The notes under the pieces are model-generated. The model was not told where the DNA came from. It worked only from the letters and a program-made list of their open reading frames with translations, and made no database searches. Shown piece after piece: positions 44,976 through 63,914 of a stretch of DNA of 64,000 bases. The stretch lies in assembly GCF_003014735.1 (NCBI RefSeq), contig NZ_PYAX01000004.1, forward strand, positions 186,001 to 250,000, given 5' to 3'. The DNA comes from Saccharothrix carnea. Its GTDB lineage: Bacteria > Actinomycetota > Actinomycetes > Mycobacteriales > Pseudonocardiaceae. Numbering within the stretch: the first letter of the stretch is position 1; each line of letters begins with the position of its first letter. The position numbers were made by a program, and so were the translations under genes.

Positions 44976-47900
44976 TCAGGCGCCCGAGTGGATGTAGGGC
45001 GCCCAGCGGCTCGGGTCGCGGGGATCGGCGTCGCGCAGGGCCCGCACGGTCCGGTGCAGGACGTGGGCGGTGTCGGTGAGGTTCAGGCCGGTGCCGTTGA
45101 TCAGTGCCGTGTAGACGGAGGTCGCCACGTCCACGGCGGTGCGGTCGGTGACGGTCCAGAGGGTGGCGATGACGTGGCGGTAGCCGGCCAGTTGCAGTGC
45201 GGCGGCGAGGTGGATGGCCTCGTCGGGCAGGGTGGTGCCGCCCACGGCGGTGTGGCACGCGGACAGGTAGGCCAGTTCGGCGTGGGCGAGGTCCAGGTCG
45301 GCGACGTCGAGCACGGTGAGCGGTTTGTCCCACAGGTACAGCGCGCCGGTGGAGGGGTCGCGCACGTCCTGTCCGCCGTGGCAGGCGAAGTGCGCGTACG
45401 CGTGGGTCCGCAGGTCTTCGGTGACGACGGCGTGGGTGGCGGCCTCGCCGACGCGCAGGGTGTGCGACCCGGGCAGTGCGCGTTCGAGGAACTCCGCCTC
45501 CGCGCGCGCTCCGGGCAACGGGCTCAGCGCGCCGGCGCCGGGCGGTGTTTCGGGCAGGCTCACGGCGAGCAGTCGCCGGTCGGCGGTGGCGGGCGGGTCG
45601 GTCTTGCGCGCCCTGGCCAGGGCGCGCAGCGTCGGGGCGTAGGAGGAGACGACGCGGTCGAGCACGGTCCGCCCGGCCGGGGTGTCGGCCGGGTCGTGGT
45701 AGCCGGCGGCGTGCAGCGGCAGCAGGGTCAGCAGGCCGGTGGGGCACCACCACACCCGCTCGCCGCCCGCCAGGCCGAGGTGGTCGAGCACCGGTCCGGC
45801 CACGGTGTCCCACAGCCACTCCAGCGTCACGTGCAGCGTCTGCTTGGCGCTGGTGCGGGTGAGGTCGCCGGGCACGGCCGGACGTCCGAGCACGCGCAAC
45901 GCGCGCAGGTAGGCGGTCACCCGCCGGGTGGTCTCGGCCGCCGACAGGTCGGGCAGCGGGATGTGCTCGACCGGCCCGTCGCGCCGCACGACCAGCGCGT
46001 CGCACCGCACGTCGTAGACGTTGATCAGCACCACCGGCCCGTCCGGCAGGCCGTCGCGCAGGGCGGCCAGCGGCGGCACGCCCAGCAGGTGCTCCAGCCC
46101 CGGCAACGCCCGCGCCCGGGCGAGCAGCCGGTCCCACTCCTCGGCCAGCCGGATCCGGCGGTCCTGCTCGTGCCGGGCGGCGTCGGCCGGGAGCACGGCG
46201 GGCACGGTGGGCAGGGCGGGTGAGAGGCCGGTCGGCGCCTCGACGTCGCCCGCGGTGGCCAGCTGCGCGGCCACGCTGCGCAGCCGGTCGTACAGCGCCG
46301 GGTCGCGCTCGCGCAGCACCGACGTGTCGTCGCGGGTCTGCAACGCCTGCGACCACAGCACCGAGCGACCCTGTTCGAGCAGCTCCACCGCGAGCTCGGG
46401 GTTGCCGCCCTCCAACGCCGCCGCCGCACCGGCCGTGGCGAAGCCGTCCCACTGGTCCAGCCGCCGTTCGCGGTCGCCGCGCTCGACACCGTGCCAGGCG
46501 AACCGCGGCAGCAGGGCGGCCGCCGCGCCGAACCCCTCGACCGCGGACGGCCAGTCCTCGCGCCGGGCCGACAGGAAGGCCCACGCGGTGGCGGCGGACG
46601 CCCGCATGGCGGCGGTGGCGGACCGTGATCCGGCGGCGGTGCGGCAGGCCGCCACGGCGTCCTCGTAATCGGCCGCCGCGCCGTGGCGCACGTAGCGCCG
46701 GCGCAGCACCAGGCCCAGGTTCAGCCAGCCCAACGCCTGCCGCGGGTCGTCGGCCGGGATGGTCTCGATGGCCCGGCGGCTCTGCTCGACGGCCTCCTCC
46801 GCGTCACCGTCCTGACCGCGGCCGTCGTACCTGGCTTGCAGCACCGACGCCAGGTTGAGCCGGTACACGGCGCCGTTGGCGTGCGCCGGGTCGGTGATCG
46901 CGACCGCTTCGCGCAGCAGCGCGACGGCTCGGTCGAGGTCGTCGCCGCGGTCGCGGTGCTCCTGGTACCGGCTGTAGCGCATCATGGCCAGGTTCGACAG
47001 CAGGTGCGCCCGGTGCGGGTGGCCCCGCGCGCCGCGCTCGACCGCCTCGCCGGCGGCCTCGATCGCGGCGTCGAGGTCGGGTGCGTGCTTGCGTTCGATG
47101 AACCGGATGTGCAGGGCGACCGCGTGGTTGAGCAGGCAGGTGACGGCGGTCGCCTCGGACGCGTCGTCGATCGCGGACCGGGAGATGTCCACCGCCGCGT
47201 CGAGGTCCGCGGTGGAGCCGAGGTGCCTGGCCCTGGCGCACAGCGCGTTGCCGAGGTTGGTCCGCATGAGCGATCGCATGGCGCCGCCGCTGCTGTCCAC
47301 CGCCGCGCGCATCACGTCGATCGCCTCGTGCAGGTCGGTGATCGCGCCCGTCCGCTCGTACCTGGCCCACAGCGCGGTACCCAGCCCCATCAGCTGGTGC
47401 GGTGCGAGGACGTGCCCGCCGGGCAGCTCGGCGACGGCGTCCCGGCCGAGGTCGACCGCCGCGGTCAGGTCGGCGAGGGAACCGCTGTGCTGGCCGCGGA
47501 CCAGCAGGCAGTTCGCCAGGGCGACCGCGGCCGACGCCCGCTCGGGCGCCTGCAACCCCGGCCGCGCCAGGGCACGTTCGGCGGCCGTGACGGCCTCGTC
47601 CAGGTCGGCCGGGTCGCCGCGGTGGACGTACCGGGTGCGCAGCGAGTTCGCCAGCTCGGACAGGGCGCCGGCCCGGGCGCCGTCGCCCGCGGTCGTGGTC
47701 GCGGCGGCACGGCGGTGCGCTTCGACGGCTTCGTCCAGGGCGGCGATGTCGTCGGTCCGCTCGAACAGCTGGGTCAGGGACGTGCCGAGCAGCATGAGCA
47801 GCGTGGCGTGGTGCGCGTGGTCCGGCGCGGTGGCCCGCAGACCGGTCCTGGCGACCTCGATCGCCTCGGTGAGCTGGGCGGGGTCGCCGGTCTCGCTGAA

Positions 47901-50681
47901 CCGCAGTTGCAGCGCGCGGGCCAGGTGCAGGTGGACGGCGAGGTGGCCGGGTGTGCCTGCGGGGAAGCCGGGGCCCGCCTCGCGCAGCAGTTCCACGGCC
48001 TCGTCCAGCGCCTCCGGGGACCGCGACCACTGCGCGCGCATCATCAGCGCGAGCGCCAACTGGGGGCGCAGCCCGTCGTGCGGCTTGCCCGGCGTGGCCT
48101 CGGCGAGGCCTTCGCGCAGCACGGCGATGGACTCGTCGACGTCGGCGAACTCGGAGTGGTGCAGGAAGCGGAGGGTCAGGGCGAGCCCGAGGTGCACCCG
48201 GCACTCGGTCAGCGCGGGGTGCGCGCCCCGGGTGCCTGCCACGGCGGTGCGCAGGACCGCGATCGCCCGGTCGAGGTCGGCCGGATCGCGGTGCAGCTCG
48301 TACCGGCCGGAGCGCAGGGCGGCGGATTTCGCGCTCAAAGCCAGGGTGGTGGCGTCCCCGGGCGGCAGTTCGGGGAGCAGCTGTTCGACTTGCCGGATCG
48401 TGTCCTCGATCGCGTCGTCCAGGTCGGCGGACGTCCCCTGGTGCTGGACCCGCTGGTGCAGGACCAGGGCGAGGTTGTTCAGCAGGGGGCCGCGTCCGCT
48501 GCCCGTCGTGACCGGCAACGCGGACCGCAGCACCGCCGTGGCGTCCGCCAGGTCCGCCGTGGACCCGGTGACCAGGTAGCGCTCGACCAGCAGCTCGCTC
48601 AGCGTGAGGACGGTGAACACGCCGGGGGCGGTGCCCAGCGTCATCGCTTCCCGACAGGTCTCGATCGCCTCGGTGAGGCCCGCCGGGTCGCGTTCCGCCC
48701 GGGCCGCCCAGCCGACCGCGCCCGCCAGCGCGTTGAGCGCGTCCGCCCGGTGCGGGTCGTCGGCCGGGGTGCCGTCGACGGCCGCGCGGGCGAGGCGGAC
48801 GGCTTCGCCGAGGTCGTCGGGCTCGCCCGCGATGGTGAAGCGGAGCTGCCGCACGAGCGCGGCGGTGCGGTGGACCCGGGGCAGCTCGCGGTGACCGGCG
48901 GGCAGCAGCGCGGCGGCGCGGTCCGCCGCGTCCACCGCGCGGTCGAGGGCGGTCCGCTCCCCGGTGCTGTTGAACCGCGCGGTCCAGGTCGAGGCGAGTT
49001 CGTGCAGGTGGCCCGCGCGGTCCACGTCGTCGGGGACCAGCGACGCGATCGCGCGCAGCACCGCGATCCGCTCGTCGAGGTCGGCGCGGCGCCCGGTGCG
49101 GTCGAACCTCTGCCGCAGCAGGTCCGCGTGGTTGCGCAGGTGTTGGGTGCGCAGCGCCTGGTCGGGGATGCCGGTCCGGACGGCTTCCCGGGCCGCTTCG
49201 ACCGCCGCGTCCAGGTCGCGCTCCTCGCCGGAGAGCCGGAACCACTCCCGGGTGACCTCCGCCAGCTTGAGCCGGGCCGCCATGAGGACGTGGTGGTCCG
49301 CGTCCGCCACGGCCTCCCGCAGCAGCCGCATCGCCTCCTGGAGCACCGCGGTGTCACCGGTCTCCCCGTACCGGGTGGTCAGCACGTCGGCCAAGGCGAA
49401 CAACGCGCGGACGCGCTGGGCGGGCTCCACGGCCTCGGCCGACAACGCCGCACGGGCCGCCCGCTCGGCCGCGGGGTGGTCGTCGCGCGCCGCCCGGCGG
49501 ACGTTCGCCAGCACGGCGTCCACCTCGTGCCGCAGCGGGTGGCCCTCGGGCACGGCGGCGTCGGCGATGGCGGCGAGCCTGGTCGCCTCGGCCAGGTCGC
49601 CCTCGTCGGGTGTGCCGTAGGCGCGCGCGTGCACCAGCCGCAACACCAACCCGGTGATGAGCTTGAGCAGCGCCGTGACCTCCACGTCGTCGGACGCCGT
49701 GCCGCCACCGGCGGACCACACCGCCGACATGTGCCGGACGCACTCCTCGACGTCGGCGACGTCGGCGTCCTCGCCGCCGCGGATGAACCTGATCTTGAGG
49801 GCTTCGCTGAGGATCACCAGCGCGATGCGGCGGTCGGGATCTCCCTCGGCGCACGCGGCCACGACGTCCCTGGCCACCGCCACGCACTCGCCCACCTCGT
49901 CGGACGGCGCGCCGCGCTCGCACCGGACCGCGAGCGCGGTGGCGAGCGCGAACAGGCACCTGAGGCGGTCGGTGTCGTCGGGCGGCAGCGTCTTCGCGCC
50001 GCGCAGGAGTTCCGTGGCCTGGTCCAGGTCGGCCTCACGGCCCAGCACCTGGAAGCGGGTGTGCAGGGCCAGGCCGAGGTTGAGCGCCGCCGCGGCGCCG
50101 AGCGGGTGGTCGGGGTGCTCCAGGGCGGCCCGGCCCGCAGCCACGGCCTCGTCCAGGTCGGCCACCGCGCCGCCGCGCTCGTGCCGGGCGGCCAGCAGGA
50201 CGAGCAGGTTGTACCGGTGCACGGTGAGGTCGTCGCCCTCGACCGTCCGGCACGCGGCACGGCACGCCTCCACGCCGAGGTCCACCAGCTCGGGGTTGCC
50301 GGTCGTCATCGCGCCCCGGGCGATCACGGTGGCGTAGTAGCTGCCGATACCGTCGAGGGGCATCACGGGGACTTCGGGGTTCTCCGCACGCCACTCCAGC
50401 ACCGGCGGGGGCACCGCCCGGGGTAACAGCGCGGCGATCGGGCCGTAGAGGCTCAGGCACACGTCGAGGTCGGGGCCGCCGATCTCCGGCCGCAGGGCGC
50501 CGTAGCGGAGCCAGTGCAGCGACGCCACGGTGGCCACGGCGTCGAGGGCCACGTCCCCGGTGATGGCCGGCAGCACCAACCGGGCGGCCTGCGCCAGCGC
50601 GTCCGGGCCGAGCACGTCGGTGGGATCACCGACCTGCCCGCACCGCGCGATGCGGTCACTCAGGGGAATGGCGTCCCGCAT
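44976..50681 (-). CDS. Giant TPR-CHAT domain protein (caspase-like protease)
   Basis: 1901 residues. More than twenty TPR-like helical repeats with the recurrent phrase LDEAVEAxRxA and ADLDxA fill residues about 100-1450. The C-terminal CHAT (caspase HetF associated with TPRs) domain, about 1570-1901, has the catalytic His in HFACHGG near 1768 and Cys in LSACHTA near 1809. CHAT-TPR proteins are peptidases of bacterial gasdermin, CRISPR-Craspase and other conflict systems. The start at ATG 50681 is supported by GAGG nine bases upstream; the frame is open further but without support. It is divergent from a small protein and a membrane protein that probably act with it. Confidence 0.88.
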   Translation of the reverse strand: MRDAIPLSDRIARCGQVGDPTDVLGPDALAQAARLVLPAITGDVALDAVATVASLHWLRYGALRPEIGGPDLDVCLSLYGPIAALLPRAVPPPVLEWRAENPEVPVMPLDGIGSYYATVIARGAMTTGNPELVDLGVEACRAACRTVEGDDLTVHRYNLLVLLAARHERGGAVADLDEAVAAGRAALEHPDHPLGAAAALNLGLALHTRFQVLGREADLDQATELLRGAKTLPPDDTDRLRCLFALATALAVRCERGAPSDEVGECVAVARDVVAACAEGDPDRRIALVILSEALKIRFIRGGEDADVADVEECVRHMSAVWSAGGGTASDDVEVTALLKLITGLVLRLVHARAYGTPDEGDLAEATRLAAIADAAVPEGHPLRHEVDAVLANVRRAARDDHPAAERAARAALSAEAVEPAQRVRALFALADVLTTRYGETGDTAVLQEAMRLLREAVADADHHVLMAARLKLAEVTREWFRLSGEERDLDAAVEAAREAVRTGIPDQALRTQHLRNHADLLRQRFDRTGRRADLDERIAVLRAIASLVPDDVDRAGHLHELASTWTARFNSTGERTALDRAVDAADRAAALLPAGHRELPRVHRTAALVRQLRFTIAGEPDDLGEAVRLARAAVDGTPADDPHRADALNALAGAVGWAARAERDPAGLTEAIETCREAMTLGTAPGVFTVLTLSELLVERYLVTGSTADLADATAVLRSALPVTTGSGRGPLLNNLALVLHQRVQHQGTSADLDDAIEDTIRQVEQLLPELPPGDATTLALSAKSAALRSGRYELHRDPADLDRAIAVLRTAVAGTRGAHPALTECRVHLGLALTLRFLHHSEFADVDESIAVLREGLAEATPGKPHDGLRPQLALALMMRAQWSRSPEALDEAVELLREAGPGFPAGTPGHLAVHLHLARALQLRFSETGDPAQLTEAIEVARTGLRATAPDHAHHATLLMLLGTSLTQLFERTDDIAALDEAVEAHRRAAATTTAGDGARAGALSELANSLRTRYVHRGDPADLDEAVTAAERALARPGLQAPERASAAVALANCLLVRGQHSGSLADLTAAVDLGRDAVAELPGGHVLAPHQLMGLGTALWARYERTGAITDLHEAIDVMRAAVDSSGGAMRSLMRTNLGNALCARARHLGSTADLDAAVDISRSAIDDASEATAVTCLLNHAVALHIRFIERKHAPDLDAAIEAAGEAVERGARGHPHRAHLLSNLAMMRYSRYQEHRDRGDDLDRAVALLREAVAITDPAHANGAVYRLNLASVLQARYDGRGQDGDAEEAVEQSRRAIETIPADDPRQALGWLNLGLVLRRRYVRHGAAADYEDAVAACRTAAGSRSATAAMRASAATAWAFLSARREDWPSAVEGFGAAAALLPRFAWHGVERGDRERRLDQWDGFATAGAAAALEGGNPELAVELLEQGRSVLWSQALQTRDDTSVLRERDPALYDRLRSVAAQLATAGDVEAPTGLSPALPTVPAVLPADAARHEQDRRIRLAEEWDRLLARARALPGLEHLLGVPPLAALRDGLPDGPVVLINVYDVRCDALVVRRDGPVEHIPLPDLSAAETTRRVTAYLRALRVLGRPAVPGDLTRTSAKQTLHVTLEWLWDTVAGPVLDHLGLAGGERVWWCPTGLLTLLPLHAAGYHDPADTPAGRTVLDRVVSSYAPTLRALARARKTDPPATADRRLLAVSLPETPPGAGALSPLPGARAEAEFLERALPGSHTLRVGEAATHAVVTEDLRTHAYAHFACHGGQDVRDPSTGALYLWDKPLTVLDVADLDLAHAELAYLSACHTAVGGTTLPDEAIHLAAALQLAGYRHVIATLWTVTDRTAVDVATSVYTALINGTGLNLTDTAHVLHRTVRALRDADPRDPSRWAPYIHSGA

Positions 50682-50750
50682 GCCCACCGACCTCGTGTGT
50701 TCACCCGCTACGGTTCGGACCGACACACAGCGTGACACAAGGGGGACGGT

Positions 50751-51149
50751 GTGGCGGTGGAAATGGACGAGGGACAGGCGTTGGTGCTGTGGTGCCTGCT
50801 GCTGCCCGACCTGCGCCGGGCCGCGGCGGCCGGCCGCTGGTCCGACCGGCTCGAACGCACCGCGGCACAGGTGCGGGACGGCGGGTCGGCGCTGGACGCG
50901 TGCCGCCGGTTCGACCTGATCCCCGGCGACGATGCGGACGACGGTACCCGCGGCTTCGGCGAGCAACCCGGCGTCGCCAACGCCTACCCCGACCCGCGCG
51001 GGGCACGGCCACCGGGCACCGGTCGCGGCGAGTACCGCTGCCCGCGCGGTGTCTGCGGGCGGTACGACCGCCGTGACGACGAAGGCCGCCCGCCGGTCTG
51101 CGCGCTGTTCGACGACGAGCCGATGCTGCCCACCGGGTCGCCGCGGTGA
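50751..51149 (+). CDS. Small CPxGxC-motif protein, CHAT-system associated
   Basis: 132 residues. An N-terminal helical part (ALVLWCLLLPDLRRAAAAGRWSDRL) is followed by a disordered Pro/Gly-rich linker and a C-terminal YRCPRGVCGRYDR...PPVC unit with Cys97, Cys102 and Cys117, which may bind a metal. Similar small proteins accompany caspase/CHAT-TPR conflict genes in actinomycetes (family recall, not checked). It is divergent from the CHAT gene with a 69-bp gap. GTG start with GGGGGA upstream; an ATG four codons later is possible. GTGA overlap to the next gene. Confidence 0.6.
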   Translation: MAVEMDEGQALVLWCLLLPDLRRAAAAGRWSDRLERTAAQVRDGGSALDACRRFDLIPGDDADDGTRGFGEQPGVANAYPDPRGARPPGTGRGEYRCPRGVCGRYDRRDDEGRPPVCALFDDEPMLPTGSPR

Positions 51150-51961
51150 ACCCGTTCCTGCAGTCGCTGGGCGGCAAGCTCGCCGAGCGGTGGGTCACCA
51201 CGCTGGTGCTGCCCGGCGCGCTGTTCGTCGCCGCGGCCGTGTGCGCGGTCCGGCTCGGCCACCGCCACGCGCTCGACGTCGTCCGGGTGGGCAACGACGT
51301 CGTGGCGGCGTTCCCGCGGCTGCCGGTCGCGGTCGCCGCCATCGGCCTGGTGCTGGGCGCGACGGCCGCCGCCTTCGCCGCGCAGGCGCTCGGCGGGCTG
51401 GTGCAGTCGGTGTGGGTGAAGCCGTGGCGCGGGCCGGCGGGCTGGTTGGCCCGGCCGGTGGTCGCGGTGCGGCGGTGGCGGTTCGACCGGGCCGCGGCCA
51501 GGGCCGGGATCGACCCGGTGCCCGCCTACCGGCCGCAGCGGGCCACGTGGATCGGCGAGCGGTTCCGGTTGCTGGACTCGCGGGTCGCGGCGCAGTACCA
51601 GGGCCTCCGCCTGGGCCCGCTGTGGCCGCGGCTGTGGCTGCTGGTGCCCGAACCGGCGCGGCTGCCGGTGCAGGCGGCGGAGACCAGGTTCGGCTCGGCC
51701 ACCACCCTCGTCGGCTGGGGCGTGCTCTACGCGTCACTGGGCTGGCGCTGGTACCCGGCCGCCGTGATCGGCCTCGGCGTGGCGTTGGTGGGCTGGCGCC
51801 GCGCCCGCACGGCCGCCACCGCGCTCACCGAGCTGATCGAGGCCACCGTCGACACCCACCTCGACCTCCTCACCACGGCCATCGGCCACCCCCTGCCCCC
51901 GTCCGGCCTGACCCGCGACCTGGCCGCCCGCATCAACGACCGCTTCACCAAGGGCGACTAA
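51146..51961 (+). CDS. Membrane protein, CHAT-system associated
   Basis: 271 residues, no known family. Hydrophobic helices lie near residues 12-34 (TLVLPGALFVAAAVCAVRL), 60-85 and 190-215 (GWGVLYASLGWRWYPAAVIGLGVALVGW, in parts), with a basic cytoplasmic loop between helices two and three. The GTG start overlaps the small Cys-motif gene by GTGA, so the pair is co-translated. With the divergent CHAT protease it resembles the effector/small component/membrane component layout seen again at 33929-37245. Confidence 0.65.
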   Translation: MNPFLQSLGGKLAERWVTTLVLPGALFVAAAVCAVRLGHRHALDVVRVGNDVVAAFPRLPVAVAAIGLVLGATAAAFAAQALGGLVQSVWVKPWRGPAGWLARPVVAVRRWRFDRAAARAGIDPVPAYRPQRATWIGERFRLLDSRVAAQYQGLRLGPLWPRLWLLVPEPARLPVQAAETRFGSATTLVGWGVLYASLGWRWYPAAVIGLGVALVGWRRARTAATALTELIEATVDTHLDLLTTAIGHPLPPSGLTRDLAARINDRFTKGD

Positions 51962-53785: not shown

Positions 53786-53823
53786 CCCGGTCGGGTGAGC
53801 ACCGAGGTGGTCACCCGACCGGG
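53786..53823. terminator. Bidirectional terminator between convergent genes
   Basis: CCCGGTCGGGTGA (53786-53798) pairs perfectly over 13 bp with TCACCCGACCGGG (53811-53823), loop 12 bases. The right arm includes the stop codon of the minus-strand receptor gene. It serves both gltX and the NTPase-PBP gene. Confidence 0.75.
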
Positions 53824-56800
53824 ATGATGGCCTTCACCTGGAACGCCCCGGTGGGCCCGAGCTCGATGACGGGCAGCCGCCTGCCCACCGCGTTGCCGGT
53901 GGTGGCGTCGATGGTGAACGCGCCGCCGGCGCCGCGGATCTGGTTGCGCTCGCGGTCGGAGCGCTCCAACGCGGCGCGCACGGCCTGGCGGTTGGGCAGC
54001 TCGCCCTGTGCGAGCCCGTTGGCCGCGCGGCGGACCGCGTCCGAGGCGGCCAACAGGGCGTCGTGCATCATCACGCCCCACCCGTCGGCCAGGTCGGCGG
54101 TGTCGAAACCGAGCCCTTCGAACTTCTCGGTCAGCTGGGCGAACTCGGTGATGCCCATGGCACCGGCCGCGTCGGGGTCGACGTGCGGGGTGTAGACGAT
54201 GGTCAGGTCGGGCTCGTCGTCGCGGGGCCACAGGTCGCGCCTGGCCCGCAGCATCGAGGCGTCGGAGCCGGTGACGAGGGTGATGTTCTGCTCCAGCGCG
54301 CAGCCGCGCCCGCGCAGCTTGTCGATCAGCTCGTCCAGCAGCACCGCACGGCCCGCGTACAGCAGGGTGTTCGGGGCCCCGGTGACGCACAGGTCCTTGA
54401 GGATCTCCGAGAACTGGTTGGCCAACGACGCCTCGGTGTCGAACCGGCTCTCGATCGGGATCGACAGCGCGCCGCGCGCCGCGGCGGCCTTGAACTCGTC
54501 GTACAGCGTCGAGGTGTACAGGTCGTCCTCGTTGATGTCGTAGATCAGCATCGCCCGCGTCACGCCCTGGTCGGCCAGGTAGGACGCCAGCACGCCGATT
54601 TGGTTGCCGGTGGTGGAGCTGACCCGGGTGAACCCCTTGAGGTAGCGGGCGGGCTCGCCGTCGCCCGCGGGCTGCTCCAGGTGGAAGTCCGTGGCCGTGA
54701 CGACGGAGGCGACCATCGGCAGGTCGGCCGCCGAGAGCGCGCGGGCGGTGTGCTGGGTGTTGGTGGTGCTCTGGCCGACGCCGACCACGCCGACCAGTCG
54801 CTGCTCGTCGGCGAGTTCGATGAGCTGGTCGACCACCCGCCGCCACTCCTGCTGCCTGCTGCCGGGATTGGCCAGCAGCAGCCGCACCTTCGGTTCGAGC
54901 CCGCCTTCGTTCGCGGCGAGCTGGGCCACGTGGGCGCCTTCCAGCTGGGCCCGGACGCGCTGCCAGGTCACGCTGCCCACCTCGGTGGGCAGCAAGGGAG
55001 TGAGCACCGCGATCGTGACGTGCGGTTGGCCCTCGACCTTCCGGTTCTCCTCGAGGATGCGCCGCTGCACGTCGGCGAGCTGGTCGTCGAACACGTAGGA
55101 GCCGTCGGTGACGCCGACGCACTCGCCGCCGTGCTCGTACACGCCCTCGCCGCACCGGGTGAACAGCGTCACGGCGGCGACCGTCGCCGAGCCCAGCACG
55201 AGCGCCACCACCACGCCCAGCGCGGCCAGCCTGCGGCGTTTGCGGCGCACGGCCCGCTTCGGCGTGGGTGGCACGAAGCCGCGAGGTTTCGGCGGGCCGC
55301 TCAGCAGCTGCCGCCGGGCGGCACGGCCCCGCGTGGGCGTGCCGCCTTCCTCGGCCCTGGCTTCCAGCTTCGTGGCGGCCCGGAGGAAGTCGTTGCGGGC
55401 CACGCCGGGTTGCTGGGCGAGTGTCTTGAGGTCCCACGCCGCACTGGCGTAGAGGTCCGCGCGGTCGGCGGTGGACAGCGGGTCGGCGGCCGACCACAGC
55501 GCCGCCACGACGCGCGCGAGCGTGCGGCCCGGTTCCTCGGTGGTGGTGTGGCCGATGGCGGCGAGCACCCGTCCGGGGTCGGACTCGTCGGTGTCGAGAT
55601 CGTTGGGCGCGGCGGTGATGGCGTCCAGTTCGGCGAACCACGCCCGCGTGTCGGACAGCAGCGATTCCAGCCGGTGCACGACCGCGTCCACGTCCCGCAG
55701 CGCCAGCGCGTGGTAGTGCCGGTCCGCCTCGCGGCCGTGGTCGCGCAACCACGTGTGCACGGCCGTCCACCGCTCGGGCGTGGCGGCCAGGCGGCGCAGC
55801 AGCACGTGGCGCAGGGCGGGCAGCATGACCGCCCGGCCCGTGTCCGGGTCGCGGACCTGCACCACCACCGGCACGAGCCCCGCTCCCCCGCGCGGTGCGG
55901 GCACCAGTCCGCTGCGGGCCAGTTCGACGGCCTGCTCGACGTCCCGTGCGGCGGAGCACGCCTCCAGCGCCGCCAGGGTCGCTCCGTCCGGTGAGCCGAG
56001 CAGCTCGCGCAGCAGGCGTTCCTCGACGGTGACGGGGTCCTTGTCCACCGGGCCGCGCCACCGCGACGAGAGCAGTCGCTGCACCGATCTGGGCTCGCCG
56101 GTGTTGTCGCCGATGGCCTTGACGATCACGGCGGTCGCCGCCGGGTGGCCCGCGGTGAACCGGTAGACCTCGCCGGCCACGGCCCGGCGGGCGTTGAGCC
56201 GCGGTCCCGCGACGTCGGCGACCATGTCCTTGACCTCGTCGGGCGTCAGGTCCCGCAACGCCACCGGGTAGGAGTCGCTCTCGTAGTCCCCCTGCCGCCG
56301 TTCGACGTAGTCGTCGTAGCCGGCCTCCGCCGCGAACGGGATCTCCTGGTCCGCGGCGAGCTGCCGGGCCACCTCGCCGGCGCTGGTGGTGACCACGGTC
56401 AACGGGTCCGACTCGCCGCGCCGGGCGTCGGCCAGCGCCCGGTACAGCAGCCGGCCCGGCTTCGAGTCGATGTCGTCGAGCAGCAGCACGCAGTTCAGCG
56501 ACCACGTGCGCGCTCCGCGCCCGGTGGCGAACGCGGCCCGCAGGTCGGCCAGGAACGCCGCCCACAGCAGCTCCGTGGCCTCCTTGCGGTCGGCCTCGCT
56601 CGCGTCGTCACGGGTGAGCATGCTCAGCCGCACCAGCTCGTCGTAGGCCTGGTTGCCCGAGCCGTACCACTCCAGGCCCTGACCCAGCACGACGCGGCGT
56701 CCCCATCGCCGGGACACCAGGCCGTCCAGGATGAGGTTCGGCGCGAAGCGGGCGGCCGTGGTCACGCCCGGCACGTCGCCCACCACCGGCACCGCGCCGA

Positions 56801-57254
56801 CCACGTCCTCCGCCAGTGTGTCGAGGAACGTGCGGAGCTGGTCGACGCGGCGGGCGTTCTCCAGCTCCTGCCGGATCCGCAGTCGTGCGGCCTGGCCCGG
56901 TGTGTCGATCCGGGCGGCGATCGCGACCTGGGCGGTGACGAACCGCGGGAACGGGATCGAGCGGTAGCCGGCGGCGTTGCGGTTGAGGTCGAACGCCAGC
57001 AGCGACAGCACCTCCCACGCCGTGGTGGCCTTCAGCTCGCCGCAGTCGATCCGCGCGTAGGGGACGTTGCCGCGCAGGCCCTGCTCCAAAGAGTCCAGCA
57101 ACGCGGTCTTCCCGCAGCCCTTGGGACCGGTGAAGACCAGCACCGGCGCACGGCGGGTGACCGGGTAGCCGTTCGGCTCCGGCCGGGTGGCGAACTCGCG
57201 CACCAGCGAGACGGCCTCGTCCCTGCCGTGCAACCGTAACGCGCCATCAGCCAT
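53811..57254 (-). CDS. NTPase-transmembrane-periplasmic-binding-protein fusion receptor
   Basis: 1147 residues. A cytoplasmic P-loop NTPase domain has GPKGCGKT (43-50) and Walker B VLLLDDIDS near 256-264, followed by a winged-helix/helical region to about 640. Basic KRAVRRKRRR precedes one membrane helix (AALGVVVALVLGSATVAAV, about 674-694). An extracytoplasmic type I periplasmic-binding/ANF-receptor-like domain (about 725-1147, VTIAVLTPLLP, LVGVVGVGQSTTNTQ, AMLIYDINEDDLY) ends the protein. This joins an outside ligand sensor to a STAND-like ATPase in one chain. No transporter genes are nearby. ATG at 57254 with GGGGG five bases upstream. Confidence 0.8.
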   Translation of the reverse strand: MADGALRLHGRDEAVSLVREFATRPEPNGYPVTRRAPVLVFTGPKGCGKTALLDSLEQGLRGNVPYARIDCGELKATTAWEVLSLLAFDLNRNAAGYRSIPFPRFVTAQVAIAARIDTPGQAARLRIRQELENARRVDQLRTFLDTLAEDVVGAVPVVGDVPGVTTAARFAPNLILDGLVSRRWGRRVVLGQGLEWYGSGNQAYDELVRLSMLTRDDASEADRKEATELLWAAFLADLRAAFATGRGARTWSLNCVLLLDDIDSKPGRLLYRALADARRGESDPLTVVTTSAGEVARQLAADQEIPFAAEAGYDDYVERRQGDYESDSYPVALRDLTPDEVKDMVADVAGPRLNARRAVAGEVYRFTAGHPAATAVIVKAIGDNTGEPRSVQRLLSSRWRGPVDKDPVTVEERLLRELLGSPDGATLAALEACSAARDVEQAVELARSGLVPAPRGGAGLVPVVVQVRDPDTGRAVMLPALRHVLLRRLAATPERWTAVHTWLRDHGREADRHYHALALRDVDAVVHRLESLLSDTRAWFAELDAITAAPNDLDTDESDPGRVLAAIGHTTTEEPGRTLARVVAALWSAADPLSTADRADLYASAAWDLKTLAQQPGVARNDFLRAATKLEARAEEGGTPTRGRAARRQLLSGPPKPRGFVPPTPKRAVRRKRRRLAALGVVVALVLGSATVAAVTLFTRCGEGVYEHGGECVGVTDGSYVFDDQLADVQRRILEENRKVEGQPHVTIAVLTPLLPTEVGSVTWQRVRAQLEGAHVAQLAANEGGLEPKVRLLLANPGSRQQEWRRVVDQLIELADEQRLVGVVGVGQSTTNTQHTARALSAADLPMVASVVTATDFHLEQPAGDGEPARYLKGFTRVSSTTGNQIGVLASYLADQGVTRAMLIYDINEDDLYTSTLYDEFKAAAARGALSIPIESRFDTEASLANQFSEILKDLCVTGAPNTLLYAGRAVLLDELIDKLRGRGCALEQNITLVTGSDASMLRARRDLWPRDDEPDLTIVYTPHVDPDAAGAMGITEFAQLTEKFEGLGFDTADLADGWGVMMHDALLAASDAVRRAANGLAQGELPNRQAVRAALERSDRERNQIRGAGGAFTIDATTGNAVGRRLPVIELGPTGAFQVKAIIPVG

Positions 57255-57321
57255 GTGAACCCCCGCGGTGAGCACCCACAACCATGATCACGCAGGACGG
57301 ACGCGTTGTCACGGCATTGCG

Positions 57322-58987: not shown

Positions 58988-60235
58988 TCAAGAGGAGGTC
59001 GACCGACTGACCTCGGGACGTTCCAACCGCAGCGAGCGCACTTCGGGCAGGAACAGGAGCAGCGCGCTGCCGAGCACCTGCCACCCGGCGGCGGCCACGA
59101 GCACCGTGCCGATGCCCACCGCCTCGGACACCGGGCCGGCCAGCGCGAGCCCGATCGGCCCGAGGGCGTACGCGCCGAGCAGCTCGTAGGCGGCGACCCG
59201 CGACAGCGCCCCGCGTGGCACCAGGGTCTGCTCGGTGGTGCGCCACAGCGCGTTGAACGTGCTGAGGCTGAACCCCACGGCGAACGCGGCCACCATGATC
59301 AACGGCAGCGGTGCGCGGGCGGCCAGCAGCACCAGCACGCCCACCCAGACCAACTGGACCACCGCGATCACCACCAGCGTGCGGCGGACGTGCAGGCGCA
59401 GCAGCACCACGCCGGCGAGGACGGCACCGGCGCCCTGCGCGGCGGCGATCGACCCCCACGCCCACGCGCCGCCCAGGTCGTTGCGCGCGACCACGGGCGC
59501 CAGCACCAGGTACGGCGCGATCACCATCAGGTTCCACAACGCCATCTGCAGCACGTTCGCCCACAGCCAGCGGCGGGTGCGGATCTCGGTCCAGCCCTCG
59601 CGCAGGTCGGCGAGCAGCCGGGTGCGCGGCACGCCCGTGCGCGGCGGCACCCGCACACCGGCCAGGAACACCGCGCTGAGCAGGTAGCTCACGCCGTCGA
59701 TCACCAGCACGACGCCCGAACCACCCAGCGCCACCAGCACGCCCGCGACAGCCGGTCCGGCCACGTCCGGGATGGACTTCGCCAGCCCCAGCACCGAGTT
59801 CGCCCGCTGGAGCCGGTCCTCGGGCACCAACTCGGCCGGCATCGCGGCCAAGGCGGGCTGGTAGAACGCCGCCGCACCGCCCCGGACTGCCGCCAGCAGC
59901 ATCATCGACCACAGCTCCGCCGTGCCGGTGAGCACCAGCGCCGCGAAGACGAACTGCGCGGCGGCGCACCCGAGGTCCGCGCCCACCATCACCAGCCGGC
60001 GCGGCACCCTGTCGGCCAGCACACCGCCCCCGACCAGGAACACCATCGTCGACACCACGCCCGACGCGAACACCAGCCCCAGGTCGCCCGCCGACGCCCC
60101 GGTGTCCAGCACCGCGAACGTCATGGCGACCGGGGCCATCGACGACCCGATCACCGACGTGGCGTAACCGAGGAAGAAGCGCCGGAAATTCCGGTCCGTC
60201 AAAAGCCCACTCGCACTCAGCACGCACCCCAACAT
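58988..60235 (-). CDS. MFS transporter
   Basis: 415 residues with about twelve membrane helices. The MFS loop motif GGGVLADRVPRRLVM lies between helices two and three, and the sequence resembles the MFS_3/enterobactin-exporter (EntS) group. Such proteins usually export drugs or small metabolites; sugar uptake is less likely. The ATG at 60235 lacks a clear ribosome binding site, and a GTG at 60241 or a GTG at 60223 is also possible. It is divergent from the VOC gene by 64 bp and upstream of the galactanase gene, but the operator between them suggests separate transcription. Confidence 0.85.
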   Translation of the reverse strand: MLGCVLSASGLLTDRNFRRFFLGYATSVIGSSMAPVAMTFAVLDTGASAGDLGLVFASGVVSTMVFLVGGGVLADRVPRRLVMVGADLGCAAAQFVFAALVLTGTAELWSMMLLAAVRGGAAAFYQPALAAMPAELVPEDRLQRANSVLGLAKSIPDVAGPAVAGVLVALGGSGVVLVIDGVSYLLSAVFLAGVRVPPRTGVPRTRLLADLREGWTEIRTRRWLWANVLQMALWNLMVIAPYLVLAPVVARNDLGGAWAWGSIAAAQGAGAVLAGVVLLRLHVRRTLVVIAVVQLVWVGVLVLLAARAPLPLIMVAAFAVGFSLSTFNALWRTTEQTLVPRGALSRVAAYELLGAYALGPIGLALAGPVSEAVGIGTVLVAAAGWQVLGSALLLFLPEVRSLRLERPEVSRSTSS

Positions 60236-60286
60236 ACGCACGCGGACCGGTCAGGAATCAAGAAGCGCCGGTCCTGTGCCCGCACC

Positions 60287-61048: not shown

Positions 61049-62446
61049 ATGCCACGCCGGACCGGCCCGCTCGGGCTCGCGCTGCTCGTCATCGCCTCGA
61101 CCCTCGCCCTGCCGGTGTCGTCGGCGGCGGCCGCCACGGTGCCGACCGGGGCGAGGTCGCTGGAATCGGTCAACTTCCCCGGCCGGTTCGTCCGGCACCT
61201 CGACCACCTGGGCCGGCTCGACCCCGTGACGTCCGGCAGCACGGCGCAGGCCAAGCAGGACGCCACCTTCACGGTGGTCAACGGCTTGGCCTCGCCGGCG
61301 TGCTACTCGTTCCAGGCGGCCAACGGGCAGTTCCTGCGGCACCGGGACTACCGGGTGCACCTGGAGGCGAACGCGGGCACGGCGCAGTTCCGCGCCGACG
61401 CGACGTTCTGCGCCGTCGCCGGTTCGGTCACCGGCTCGGTGTCGCTGGCCTCGTTCAACCTCCCGGACCGGCGGCTGCGGCACCGCGACTACGAGCTGTG
61501 GCTCGACCCCTACCAGGACACCGCGCAGTTCCGCGCCGACAGCTCGTTCCGGCTCACCGCGCCGTGGACGCCGAAGACCACCAAGGGGCCGGTGATCCCG
61601 GGGCTGTTCGCCGACCCGCACATCACCAACTTCAACGGCCGCTACTACCTCTACCCCACCACGGACGGGTATGCCGGGTGGGCGTCGCCGTACTACAAGG
61701 CGTTCTCCTCGACCGATCTGGTGAACTGGACCGACCACGGCGTGATCCTGGACCACGGGCCGGACGTCTCGTGGGCGGACAACTCGGCGTGGGCACCGGC
61801 CGTGGTCGCCAAGAACGGCCGCTACTACCTGTACTTCAGCGGTGGTGCGGCGTCCGGTGACACGGCCAAGCACCTGGGCGTGGCGGTGTCCGACTCGCCG
61901 ACAGGGCCGTTCCGCGACGCCCTCGGCAGGCCGTTGATCCGGGCGGGCACCTACTCGGGGCAGGCCATCGACCCCATGGTGTTCACCGACGACGACGGCC
62001 GGTCGTACCTGTACTGGGGCAACGGCACCGCCTACGTCGTCCCGCTCAACGCCGACATGACCTCGTTCGACCCCGCCAAGGTCCGCGACATCACCCCCAC
62101 GGGCTACCGCGAGGCGTCGTTCGTGGTCAAGCGCAACGGCACGTACTACTTCATGTGGTCGGAGAACGACACGCGGGACGAGGACTACCGGGTCGCCTAC
62201 GCCACCGGCCCCTCGCCGCTCGGCCCGTGGACCAAGCGCGGTGTCGTGCTCCAGAAGCGGCTGGACCTCGGCATCAAGGGACCCGGCCACCACTCCGTGG
62301 TCAAGGCGCCCACCGGCGACACCTGGCACGTCGCCTACCACCGCTTCGCCGTGCCGGCCGGCAACGGCACCAACCGGGAGGTGACCGTCGACCGCCTGAC
62401 CTTCAACGCCGACGGCACCATCGCCCCGATCGTCCCCACCCCGTGA
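61049..62446 (+). CDS. Secreted AbfB-GH43 glycosidase (arabinofuranosidase-like)
   Basis: 465 residues. A signal peptide (1-29, ending AAAAT) precedes an N-terminal AbfB beta-trefoil (about 36-172), with three repeats of the type SVNFPGRFVRH and RADATF or RADSSF. The GH43 catalytic domain follows (about 180-455): GLFADPHITNF supplies the Asp base, AIDPMVFTDDDG the second Asp and REASFVVKRN the Glu acid. It would remove arabinofuranose from arabinan or arabinogalactan side chains outside the cell. GGAG lies upstream of the ATG. The next GH43 gene follows after 16 bp in the same operon. Confidence 0.87.
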   Translation: MPRRTGPLGLALLVIASTLALPVSSAAAATVPTGARSLESVNFPGRFVRHLDHLGRLDPVTSGSTAQAKQDATFTVVNGLASPACYSFQAANGQFLRHRDYRVHLEANAGTAQFRADATFCAVAGSVTGSVSLASFNLPDRRLRHRDYELWLDPYQDTAQFRADSSFRLTAPWTPKTTKGPVIPGLFADPHITNFNGRYYLYPTTDGYAGWASPYYKAFSSTDLVNWTDHGVILDHGPDVSWADNSAWAPAVVAKNGRYYLYFSGGAASGDTAKHLGVAVSDSPTGPFRDALGRPLIRAGTYSGQAIDPMVFTDDDGRSYLYWGNGTAYVVPLNADMTSFDPAKVRDITPTGYREASFVVKRNGTYYFMWSENDTRDEDYRVAYATGPSPLGPWTKRGVVLQKRLDLGIKGPGHHSVVKAPTGDTWHVAYHRFAVPAGNGTNREVTVDRLTFNADGTIAPIVPTP

Positions 62447-62462
62447 TCAAAGGAGATCACCC

Positions 62463-63914
62463 GTGTCACGAGTCCTGACGAGGGTCGGCGCGCTGGTCGC
62501 CGCCGTGGTCCTGATGTTCACGTCGTGGTCGGTGGCGACCGAGCGGCGGGCCGAGGCGCTCGACCCGTTCACCGGCTACCTGATGGCGCACTTCACCGGC
62601 GAGCACTCCACCGGCGAGCAGATCTACCTCGCGCACAGCCGTGACGGCCTGCGCTGGACCGACCTGAACAACGGCGCGCCCGTGCTGCTGTCCACCGTGG
62701 GTACGCGCGGTGTGCGCGACCCGGCGCTGGTCCGCTCCCCCGCGGGCGACCGGTACTGGATCATCGCCACCGACCTGCGCATCGCGAACGGCACCTCGTG
62801 GTCCGACGCGGCGAACAACGGCAGCAAGTCGCTGGTCGTCTGGGAGTCCACCGACCTGGTCACCTGGTCGGCACCGCGCCTGCTCAACGTCGCGGGCGCG
62901 ATCTCAGGCGCGGGCAACGCCTGGGCGCCGGAGGCGATCTACGACCCGTCGTCCGGTGACTACGTCGTCTACTGGGCGACGAACGCGACGCTGAACGGCG
63001 TGAAGAAGCACCGGATCTACTACGTGCGCACGCGTGACTTCCGCTCGGTCACCTCGCCGGTGCTCTACATCGACCGCGGCCAGGGTCAGGGCATCATCGA
63101 CACCCAGATCATCGAGTCGCCGAGCGGTGTGGGCGGCTACCGCTACTACCGGGCCTCCGCGGACGGCCACATCACCGTCGAGGGCAGCAACTCCGTCCTC
63201 GGCTCGTGGACCACCATCGGCAACCTGTCGCACATGGGCATCTCCAACGGCACCGGCGGCGGCAACGTGGTCGAGGGTCCGATGTGGATGCAGTTCAACG
63301 GCCGCACCGAGTGGGCCCTGTGGCTGGACCAGTACGCCACCGGCCGCGGCTACATGCCGATCACGTCGACCAACCTCGGCAGCACCCGCAACTTCACCAC
63401 CCGCACCGACTACGCGCTGGGCAGCACCCGCAAGCGGCACGGCTCGATCCTCAACCTCACCGCCGCCGAGGAGAGCCGCGTGCTGGCCAAGTGGGGCACC
63501 TCCACCCCGGTCAACCGGATCCAGTCCTACAACTTCCAGGACCGCTACGTGCGCCACGCCGACTTCGACGTGCGCATCGACCCGAACGTCAGCCCGGCGC
63601 AGGACGCGCAGTTCCGCGTCATGCCCGGTCTCGCGGGCACCGGCACCGTGTCGTTCCAGTCGGTCAACTACCCCGGCTACTACCTGCGGCACAGCAACTA
63701 CGACTTCGTCCTCGCCGCCGACGACGGTTCCGCGACGTTCCGGGCCGACGCGACGTTCCGCCAGGTCGCGGGCCTCGCCAACTCGTCGTGGTCGTCGTTC
63801 CAGTCGTACAACCACACCGACCGGTACCTCCGGCACTACGCCTACCAGCTCCGGCTCGACCCGATCACCGACGCGACGGGCCGCGCGGACGCCACGTTCC
63901 GGCTGACCGGCTGA
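62463..63914 (+). CDS. Secreted GH43-AbfB glycosidase
   Basis: 483 residues. A signal peptide (about 1-33) leads into a GH43-like propeller (about 35-345) with GVRDPALVRS (Asp), NAWAPEAIYD and EGPMWM, and then a C-terminal AbfB trefoil (about 348-483) whose three units start IQSYNFQDRYVRH, FQSVNYPGYYLRH and FQSYNHTDRYLRH. The domain order is the reverse of the preceding gene. It probably acts with that enzyme on arabinose-containing polymers. The GTG start has AAAGGAG eight bases upstream. A perfect terminator follows the gene. Confidence 0.85.
   Translation: MSRVLTRVGALVAAVVLMFTSWSVATERRAEALDPFTGYLMAHFTGEHSTGEQIYLAHSRDGLRWTDLNNGAPVLLSTVGTRGVRDPALVRSPAGDRYWIIATDLRIANGTSWSDAANNGSKSLVVWESTDLVTWSAPRLLNVAGAISGAGNAWAPEAIYDPSSGDYVVYWATNATLNGVKKHRIYYVRTRDFRSVTSPVLYIDRGQGQGIIDTQIIESPSGVGGYRYYRASADGHITVEGSNSVLGSWTTIGNLSHMGISNGTGGGNVVEGPMWMQFNGRTEWALWLDQYATGRGYMPITSTNLGSTRNFTTRTDYALGSTRKRHGSILNLTAAEESRVLAKWGTSTPVNRIQSYNFQDRYVRHADFDVRIDPNVSPAQDAQFRVMPGLAGTGTVSFQSVNYPGYYLRHSNYDFVLAADDGSATFRADATFRQVAGLANSSWSSFQSYNHTDRYLRHYAYQLRLDPITDATGRADATFRLTG

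Follow-up and report, generated by a model that had tools for sequence, protein, structure and literature searches.

A probable single-chain receptor in Saccharothrix carnea linking an extracellular Venus flytrap domain to a cytoplasmic STAND-type switch

A gene on the minus strand of a 64,000-nucleotide stretch of the Saccharothrix carnea genome (assembly GCF_003014735.1, contig NZ_PYAX01000004.1, positions 186,001 to 250,000; this whole stretch is hereafter the window, and its own numbering is used) probably encodes a single-chain membrane receptor, with a Venus flytrap domain outside the cell, a STAND-type nucleoside triphosphatase (NTPase) switch inside it, and ligand gating of the switch through one transmembrane (TM) helix. 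This reading follows from the presence of a flytrap fold and a STAND-type switch on opposite sides of a predicted TM helix, and from the tight gene pairs in which the same two parts are encoded elsewhere. The first-pass annotation, made from the sequence alone, had proposed a single chain made of a cytoplasmic STAND-like NTPase, one TM helix, and a type I binding domain on the outside, and motifs, hydropathy, and structural models all agree with that layout. The open reading frame (ORF) contains no internal stop and extends from 53811 to 57281 if it begins at a TTG, or to 57254 from the ATG used here for residue numbers. In order, the protein comprises a P-loop NTPase (residues 1-640), a basic linker, one TM helix (~674-694), and a type I periplasmic-binding domain (700-1147), the last referred to below as the substrate-binding protein (SBP) half. 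The features are as follows:

53811..57254, minus strand: whole gene, 1147 aa from the ATG at 57254 (alternative TTG at 57281), by ORF reading
55335..57254, minus strand: predicted cytoplasmic STAND-like NTPase region, residues 1-640 (AlphaFold2 pLDDT 85.7; VIA-align Z 12.8 to NRC4)
57105..57128, minus strand: Walker A, GPKGCGKT, residues 43-50 (motif in alignment)
56469..56489, minus strand: Walker B, VLLLDDI, residues 256-262 (motif in alignment)
56142..56150, minus strand: GHP, a putative GxP-type motif, residues 369-371 (motif in alignment)
55785..56042, minus strand: winged-helix-like region, residues ~405-490, with conserved Arg482 (model secondary structure; NRC4 match span 3-509)
55335..55784, minus strand: C-terminal helical region of the NTPase half, residues ~491-640 (helices only in the model)
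55236..55334, minus strand: Pro/Arg-rich cytoplasmic linker, residues 641-673 (sequence)
55173..55235, minus strand: single predicted TM helix, residues ~674-694, basic side inward (hydropathy; helix 7-39 of the SBP model)
53814..55157, minus strand: predicted extracellular type I periplasmic-binding (Venus flytrap) domain, residues 700-1147 (AlphaFold2 pLDDT 90.3; LivK 3td9)
55119..55154, minus strand: juxtamembrane cysteines C701 and C712 (in 80/80 SBPs counted)
54516..54770, minus strand: stretch with S829, T853, and Y913, aligning to LivJ/mGluR ligand positions (profile alignments)

Single-sequence Pfam matches to the window protein are weak (AAA at 4.8e-5, barely above the cut-off, and ANF_receptor sub-threshold at E 0.11), and the domain assignment was therefore settled by profiles and structure. 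The structure prediction that the first-pass annotation had put forward as a check was made with AlphaFold2 from alignments of 20 NTPase rows and 24 SBP rows, and both halves were modeled confidently. For the outer half, the model matches LivK 3td9 with a Z-score of 37.3 over 346 residues (rmsd 2.7) and a Foldseek E of 1.1e-16, while a search with the SBP sequence profile gives LivK 3td9 at 2.2e-10 and mGluR5 at 7.1e-7. As modeled, the outer half is thus a type I periplasmic-binding fold, as expected of the branched-chain-amino-acid-binding/ANF-like domain that had been recognized there. The membrane helix placed near residues 674-694 in the same annotation also holds, as the only TM segment predicted by the hydropathy rule starts at residue 674 (683 when counted from the TTG), and by the positive-inside rule the anchor would be oriented with its N-terminus in the cytoplasm. 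Separate SBPs of the family likewise start with a short basic, often proline-rich tail followed by a TM helix, resembling the linker of the fused form, and no lipobox is visible by eye either in those tails or in the FTRC of the window protein. The cysteines C701 and C712 occur in 80/80 SBPs, and C956 and C985 in 98% (81 aligned, with the partial locus L046 left out of the percentages), a pattern that fits an oxidizing exterior and probable disulfide formation. Among 81 SBPs, position 829 is Ser in 76 and Thr in 5, position 853 is Thr in 68, Ser in 10, and Ala in 3, and position 913 is Tyr in 79. The LivJ and mGluR positions to which these residues align are presumably those that hold the amino-acid backbone, and because of this alignment with amino-acid contacts the ligand is likely to be amino-acid-like; small-molecule gating of the receptor is plausible on the same sequence grounds.

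The outer domain shares with LivK and LivJ its fold and its aligned ligand positions but differs from them in being anchored by an N-terminal TM helix, in being coupled to an NTPase, and in having no recurrent transporter partner. These differences bear on whether the protein belongs to an unusual uptake system, in which the SBP would deliver to a transporter and the NTPase would power or control that transporter. Many ABC importers use this fold, a sodium:sulfate symporter-like gene overlaps the end of the SBP gene at locus L030, and a multi-TM gene (58988-60241) lies two genes away from the window receptor. We nevertheless regard uptake as very unlikely, given that the protein has one TM helix only, that ABC-transporter Pfam models do not match the NTPase up to E 1, that no gene of any kind, permease and ABC ATPase included, recurs at more than 6 of the clustered loci, and that 0/6 of the above-cut-off Peripla_BP_6 proteins of the genome are among its five receptor-type SBPs.

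The linkage of the two halves across relatives provides the second line of evidence. Six-frame reading of 85 NTPase loci gave 58 adjacent NTPase-SBP pairs, 23 fusions, and 4 loci without an SBP (L098, which matched neither NTPase nor SBP, was dropped), and these fused and split counts are not prevalences, as one set of 20 regions and some of a later set were picked partly for long open frames. The first 22 loci were found partly through the SBP, so that linkage is tested by the other 63, reached via the NTPase profile: an SBP is present at 59/63, or at 41/44 once 19 loci favored for long frames are removed. Gene order is NTPase first in every pair and fusion, and the partners in 54/58 pairs overlap or lie within 30 bases of each other, with an overlap of exactly 4 bases in 24 (starts from our own gene caller). 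The first-pass annotation had held that relatives carrying the domains as separate genes would speak against a single receptor; such separation is a fact at 58/85 loci, but it does not refute the receptor, as the pairs point to a two-part unit. Similarly, the search for conserved partners that it had suggested bore out the NTPase-SBP adjacency (41/44) but yielded no third gene (widest cluster 6 loci).

Full-length fusions were found in G012, G014, G017, G202, G166, G149, Saccharothrix coeruleofusca (76%), Actinosynnema pretiosum, and Actinokineospora diospyrosa; A. pretiosum and G014 are probably one record, which leaves eight other genomes of the window's clade with the full-length fusion. 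The fused relatives are 50-76% identical to the window protein in the NTPase and 61-79% in the SBP, and a cut-off contig of Micromonospora yasonensis also covers the NTPase/SBP junction. Within the window gene, the GC content at third codon positions (GC3) is 0.90-1.00 in 12/12 blocks of up to 100 codons, the junction included. That many relatives encode two separate genes might have suggested a frameshift or an assembly join of two genes, the artifact against which the first-pass annotation had warned, but with the coding signal unbroken over the junction and the same fused frame conserved in other genomes it was rejected, and we give it practically no weight.

In a tree of 80 concatenated NTPase-SBP rows, a switch between the pair and the fused form must have occurred at least 3 times, in each case forced by starred branches, and none of 500 label shuffles gave so few (0/500; mean 19.4). 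The three fused sets, of 9, 11, and 2 rows, lie among pairs. The partial L046 and the four loci without an SBP were left out of this tree, and L047, which repeats L025, never entered it. A 40-row subset again gave three changes, and a single clade of its 14 fused rows was rejected (p-AU 0.000148); the trees were made by a quick method without bootstraps, one of them with a long-branch warning, and the AU test covers 40 author-chosen rows of the 80. By the usual logic of gene fusion, repeated joining in the same order implies that the NTPase and SBP act together. Judged from the sequences, the NTPase and the membrane-anchored SBP make up a two-part receptor of which the window gene is the one-chain version; the counts fit both fusion and fission, even though the fused sets lie among the pairs.

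For the NTPase half, the best VIA-align match is the NRC4 resistosome (Z 12.8, 312 residues, rmsd 5.5), followed by WRR4A and RPP1 (12.3), a Pyrococcus ATPase (P. abyssi; 11.7), CED-4 (11.3), Orc/Cdc6 (11.0), Avs3 (9.8), and RdrA (9.7), with the limit that Z-scores up to ~13 can reflect a common arrangement in mostly helical models. At rmsd values of 4.4-5.6, these matches indicate a fold class and no subfamily, and a family missing from the VIA-align list is not thereby excluded. A STAND/NLR-type switch, comprising a nucleotide-binding domain, helical lid, winged helix, and helical domain, is the reading that best matches the model. The STAND class is characterized by Walker A and B, a GR[DE]-type motif, and a GxP-type motif. 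All are present in the window protein, as GRDE at residues 10-13, the P-loop GPKGCGKT and Walker B that had already been noticed near the N-terminus, and GHP at 369-371, which we take to be the GxP-type motif; the GR[DE]-type motif is absent or altered in part of the family. Walker A (GxxxxGK[ST], searched for as a motif within the initial 90 positions of each matched domain) is intact in 22/22 fused copies (the 23rd, L046, is cut off before the motif), 36/58 pairs, and 4/4 loci without an SBP, and the first Asp of Walker B is kept in 22/23 (L046 again being cut off), 57/58, and 4/4, respectively. Next to this Asp stands mostly N or G; D is found there in 6 fused copies, including the window protein (DD), and in 12 pair copies. 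Many members carry an HP-hLR motif in the winged helix, with Arg482 in 81/85 and His at 478 in 42/85.

Control of transcription by a membrane-tethered, MalT-type STAND regulator, with neither a death nor an immune output, would also accommodate these data. The STAND class includes such regulators, the MalT structure 8bob is among the NTPase fold matches, and a nutrient-type binding domain suits metabolic control. It appears unlikely, however, since the winged helix is part of the switch itself, the window protein has no further DNA-binding domain by Pfam, and a membrane tether restricts access to DNA.

Together with the limit given on the Z-scores, several points weigh against the receptor reading. 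Plain Foldseek places HslU first for the NTPase half, with NLRs and MalT mixed in and query TM-scores of at most 0.30, a less clean result, so that assignment to the STAND fold class depends chiefly on the agreement among VIA-align rows and on the motifs. Walker A is incomplete in 22/58 pairs, and these gaps, with the N or G that mostly follows the Walker B Asp, make hydrolysis doubtful in many relatives; our guess from the sequences is that the family holds nucleotide tightly and hydrolyzes it slowly or not at all. Where the NLR 'MHD' motif has its His, the window protein has Leu478, and NB-ARC is not among its 10 Pfam families up to E 1, though sub-threshold in the relatives L086 and L095; with the MHD His absent and NB-ARC not above the cut-off, the protein is not filed as an NLR but only as NLR-like in its working. 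The SBP is absent at 4/85 NTPase loci (L096, L127, L159, and L161), and, conversely, a TM-SBP gene of Nonomuraea gerenzanensis (L208:3773-5335) has no NTPase gene adjoining. The pairwise identities of NTPase and SBP correlate closely (r 0.893 for 80 loci, whereas 1000 shuffles reach at most 0.105; r 0.649 for 3012 locus pairs below 45% NTPase identity), which fits coupling of the two parts, but such a correlation is expected of linked genes irrespective of function. The linker looks flexible, which counts against rigid coupling. Finally, there is no widely shared neighbor, the widest clusters spanning 6 loci among 796 neighbor proteins clustered (a home-made GC3 caller was used and may miss genes), and the cyclase-like domain described below is weakly matched.

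The neighbor proteins (639 around NTPase loci and 157 around the P-loop-less receptors described below; inspection covered the N-terminal residues of the top 25 clusters) gave no conserved third partner gene, and that candidate was rejected, with the widest clusters at only 6 loci. The sole hint of an effector lies within the chain itself in three relatives (L037, L040, and L097), in which a high-GC3 N-terminal stretch ahead of the NTPase appears cyclase-like (VDIAGS...GDG, with metal-binding Asp motifs by eye); the window protein lacks this stretch. Guanylate_cyc in Pfam reaches E 0.083 for L037 (12.9 bits against a cut-off of 21.9), and L097 matches nothing up to E 10. In L081, a stretch of 456 aa that looked like an additional N-terminal domain was rejected as a wrong start, with GC3 at 0.64-0.82 over nearly all of it. 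At L161:4571-8410, a family NTPase stands behind ~600 residues that have no Pfam match in the part scanned, with no SBP nearby; here the start may be wrong.

An immune or self-killing receptor, in which an outside molecule derived from phage, competitors, or stress triggers death or dormancy via a separate effector, is suggested by the nearest folds, which include resistosomes, apoptosomes, and the phage sensor Avs3. Defense genes are often patchy in distribution, whereas the SBP family is found in 25/25 genomes examined of the window's genus, and the outer domain resembles an amino-acid binder. PADLOC matches to the window protein are weak and confined to P-loop stretches (best E 0.0032), and no neighbor gene stands at more than 6 clustered loci; these two results leave the death response suggested in the first-pass annotation hypothetical. 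Periplasmic-binding protein (PBP) domains are reported to lie behind TM helices in a membrane-associated conflict system (PMC7159879), but on balance we consider this account improbable.

Several other genes of the window are recorded here as observations. A 1996-aa protein encoded at 44976-50966 (minus strand) ends in a CHAT domain (Pfam 2.6e-44) and matches TPR weakly, and divergent from it, at 51146-51961 (plus strand), is a gene for a 271-aa protein with two predicted TM helices and no Pfam match. Three genes, at 57363-~58800 (minus), 61049-62446 (plus), and 62463-63914 (plus), appear to encode secreted glycosidase-like proteins, by eye GH43-like with ricin- or AbfB-like tails; the first of these ends 108 bases upstream of the receptor ATG on the same strand.

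The family is unevenly distributed. In the window's family, 84/249 genomes have a best match at E <=1e-40 (by our table count), while the 189/249 reached at E 1e-3 include generic P-loop matches. Another genus of the same class, presumably Streptomyces, has matches at E 1e-15 in 87/199 genomes. Elsewhere the gene is rare, with the own genome and 4 others of 396 across the phylum, and 4/151 in the family of G320. Copy numbers are lower bounds, as 4, 3, 6, and 8 candidates per genome were scored in the family, phylum, second-genus, and G320-family surveys, respectively. A search of plasmid records gave four matching records from three organisms, three of them without annotation at the match, and no plasmid record matched a Streptomyces-type NTPase query. 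The further carriers are Streptantibioticus cattleyicolor pSCAT and an Embleya replicon, each with a pair, and Nonomuraea gerenzanensis, with the SBP alone; the last record is labeled a plasmid yet spans 11.85 Mb.

In the window's genus, the SBP-family gene (E 1e-30) is present in 25/25 genomes, with one to five members each, active or P-loop-less. The own genome has five by the SBP profile: besides the window gene, contig 14 carries a split pair, and the other three are fused P-loop-less paralogs:

L041:6114-8834, 906 aa: fused P-loop-less paralog
L042:5439-8243, 934 aa: fused P-loop-less paralog
L197:3252-5978, 908 aa: fused P-loop-less paralog

With 24 from other genomes, these make 27 P-loop-less fused receptors, in which GxxxxGK[ST] occurs in 0/27 and the Walker B Asp in 22/27, and the NTPase-profile match stops at model position 300-378, short of the winged helix. 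The selection took SBP-type frames of ~800-1060 aa in which the NTPase match was weak or partial, and 27/27 therefore describes the set and is no frequency; L180, also taken for this set, gave no receptor gene. A role as co-receptors or dampers is possible for these paralogs. In two genomes, the next gene downstream of such a receptor encodes a second one-TM protein (L041:3060-6050 and L166:6391-9486, 71% identical), the L041 product having weak NACHT/AAA matches. Also in the own genome, L198:4297-6825 encodes an 842-aa protein with a cytoplasmic-looking N-terminus, a TM helix, a Peripla_BP_6-type domain, and more TM helices, an arrangement that by its sequence is a different way to mount a binding domain.

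Among known systems, the switch fold is shared with NLR and STAND proteins (NRC4, RPP1, CED-4, Apaf-1/Dark, and Avs3), whose NLR members are generally laid out as an optional N-terminal effector, a switch, and a C-terminal sensor. The window protein differs in that its sensor lies across the membrane and has a small-molecule-binding fold, and in having no fused effector and no MHD His. In Venus kinase receptors the flytrap is N-terminal, and serine/threonine kinases fused to substrate-binding domains occur in Streptomyces. In the Venus kinase receptors described from invertebrates, a flytrap, one TM helix, and a cytoplasmic signaling enzyme are likewise combined in one chain, but the output is a tyrosine kinase (PMC2680970, PMC3703292). 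The closest printed precedent found is the EACC1 two-gene membrane conflict system, which is reported to be prevalent in actinobacteria. Up to 50 C-terminal variants are described for one of its proteins, which in most cases bears a caspase, and TM helices leading to an outer PBP domain are among them (PMC7159879). The likeness lies in this end of the second gene product, where TM helices precede an extracellular periplasmic-binding domain; in that system this part stands behind a caspase or cyclase and is paired with an EACC1 gene (PMC7159879), whereas the SBP described here follows or partners a STAND-like NTPase. The window protein has no caspase or cyclase at its N-terminus by Pfam up to E 1, the NTPase coming first, and no EACC1 gene was found among three window neighbors in a Pfam scan (presence of an EACC1 model in that Pfam unchecked).

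In the GlnH-GlnX-PknG system of Actinobacteria, an extracellular amino-acid binder also steers a cytoplasmic enzyme via a membrane protein, but there the binder GlnH is a lipoprotein of its own, the signal passes through a transducer with four TM segments, and the output is a kinase (PMC9769921). CisA of Streptomyces coelicolor, on which a contractile injection system depends for its cell-death function, is similarly an N-in bitopic protein with an outer solute-binding-like domain; compared by description only, it differs in that this domain has ~158 residues and the cytoplasmic part is largely unstructured, with no NTPase mentioned in the portion available (PMC12237407). Both systems indicate that actinobacteria steer inner responses with outer binding domains. 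Other signaling proteins carry CHASE2 or PBP outer sensor domains, with no STAND-flytrap fusion in the accessible parts of those accounts (PMC8195603, PMC1592074), and the open-licence literature searched yielded no account of a flytrap that is coupled to a STAND NTPase. The parts, a STAND switch and a flytrap receptor, are known, and it is their combination that is without a description in that literature.

In the mechanism we propose, an extracellular, probably amino-acid-like molecule would close the flytrap, and closure would rearrange or cluster receptors via the TM helix and linker. The NTPase would then shift between nucleotide states, and probably in assembly state too, and the assembled receptor would signal to a partner encoded elsewhere; in the three relatives with a nucleotidyl-cyclase-like N-terminal domain, the NTPase seems to carry its own output. 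With an optional N-terminal effector, a switch, and a C-terminal sensor, the layout would be that of an NLR with its sensor moved outside the cell. A wider proposal, possible if doubtful as a whole, is that filamentous actinomycetes have a cell-surface class of NLR, in which small-molecule-gated Venus flytraps drive STAND switches across the membrane, assemblies of active and P-loop-less members set the threshold, the pair is primary, and the single-chain form evolved at least 3 times.

STAND switches are at the core of immune and death sensing in plants, animals, and bacteria, and the best-known ones sense intracellularly. The hosts of this family are soil actinomycetes and belong to antibiotic-producer groups in which extracellular small-molecule signals control development. 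Standard binding screens should be applicable to the ligand, and STAND gating across a membrane is directly testable because the domains match between split and fused forms. If the receptor reading is true, an outside amino-acid-type sensor linked to a STAND switch would be a bacterial receptor class comparable to the flytrap receptors of animals.

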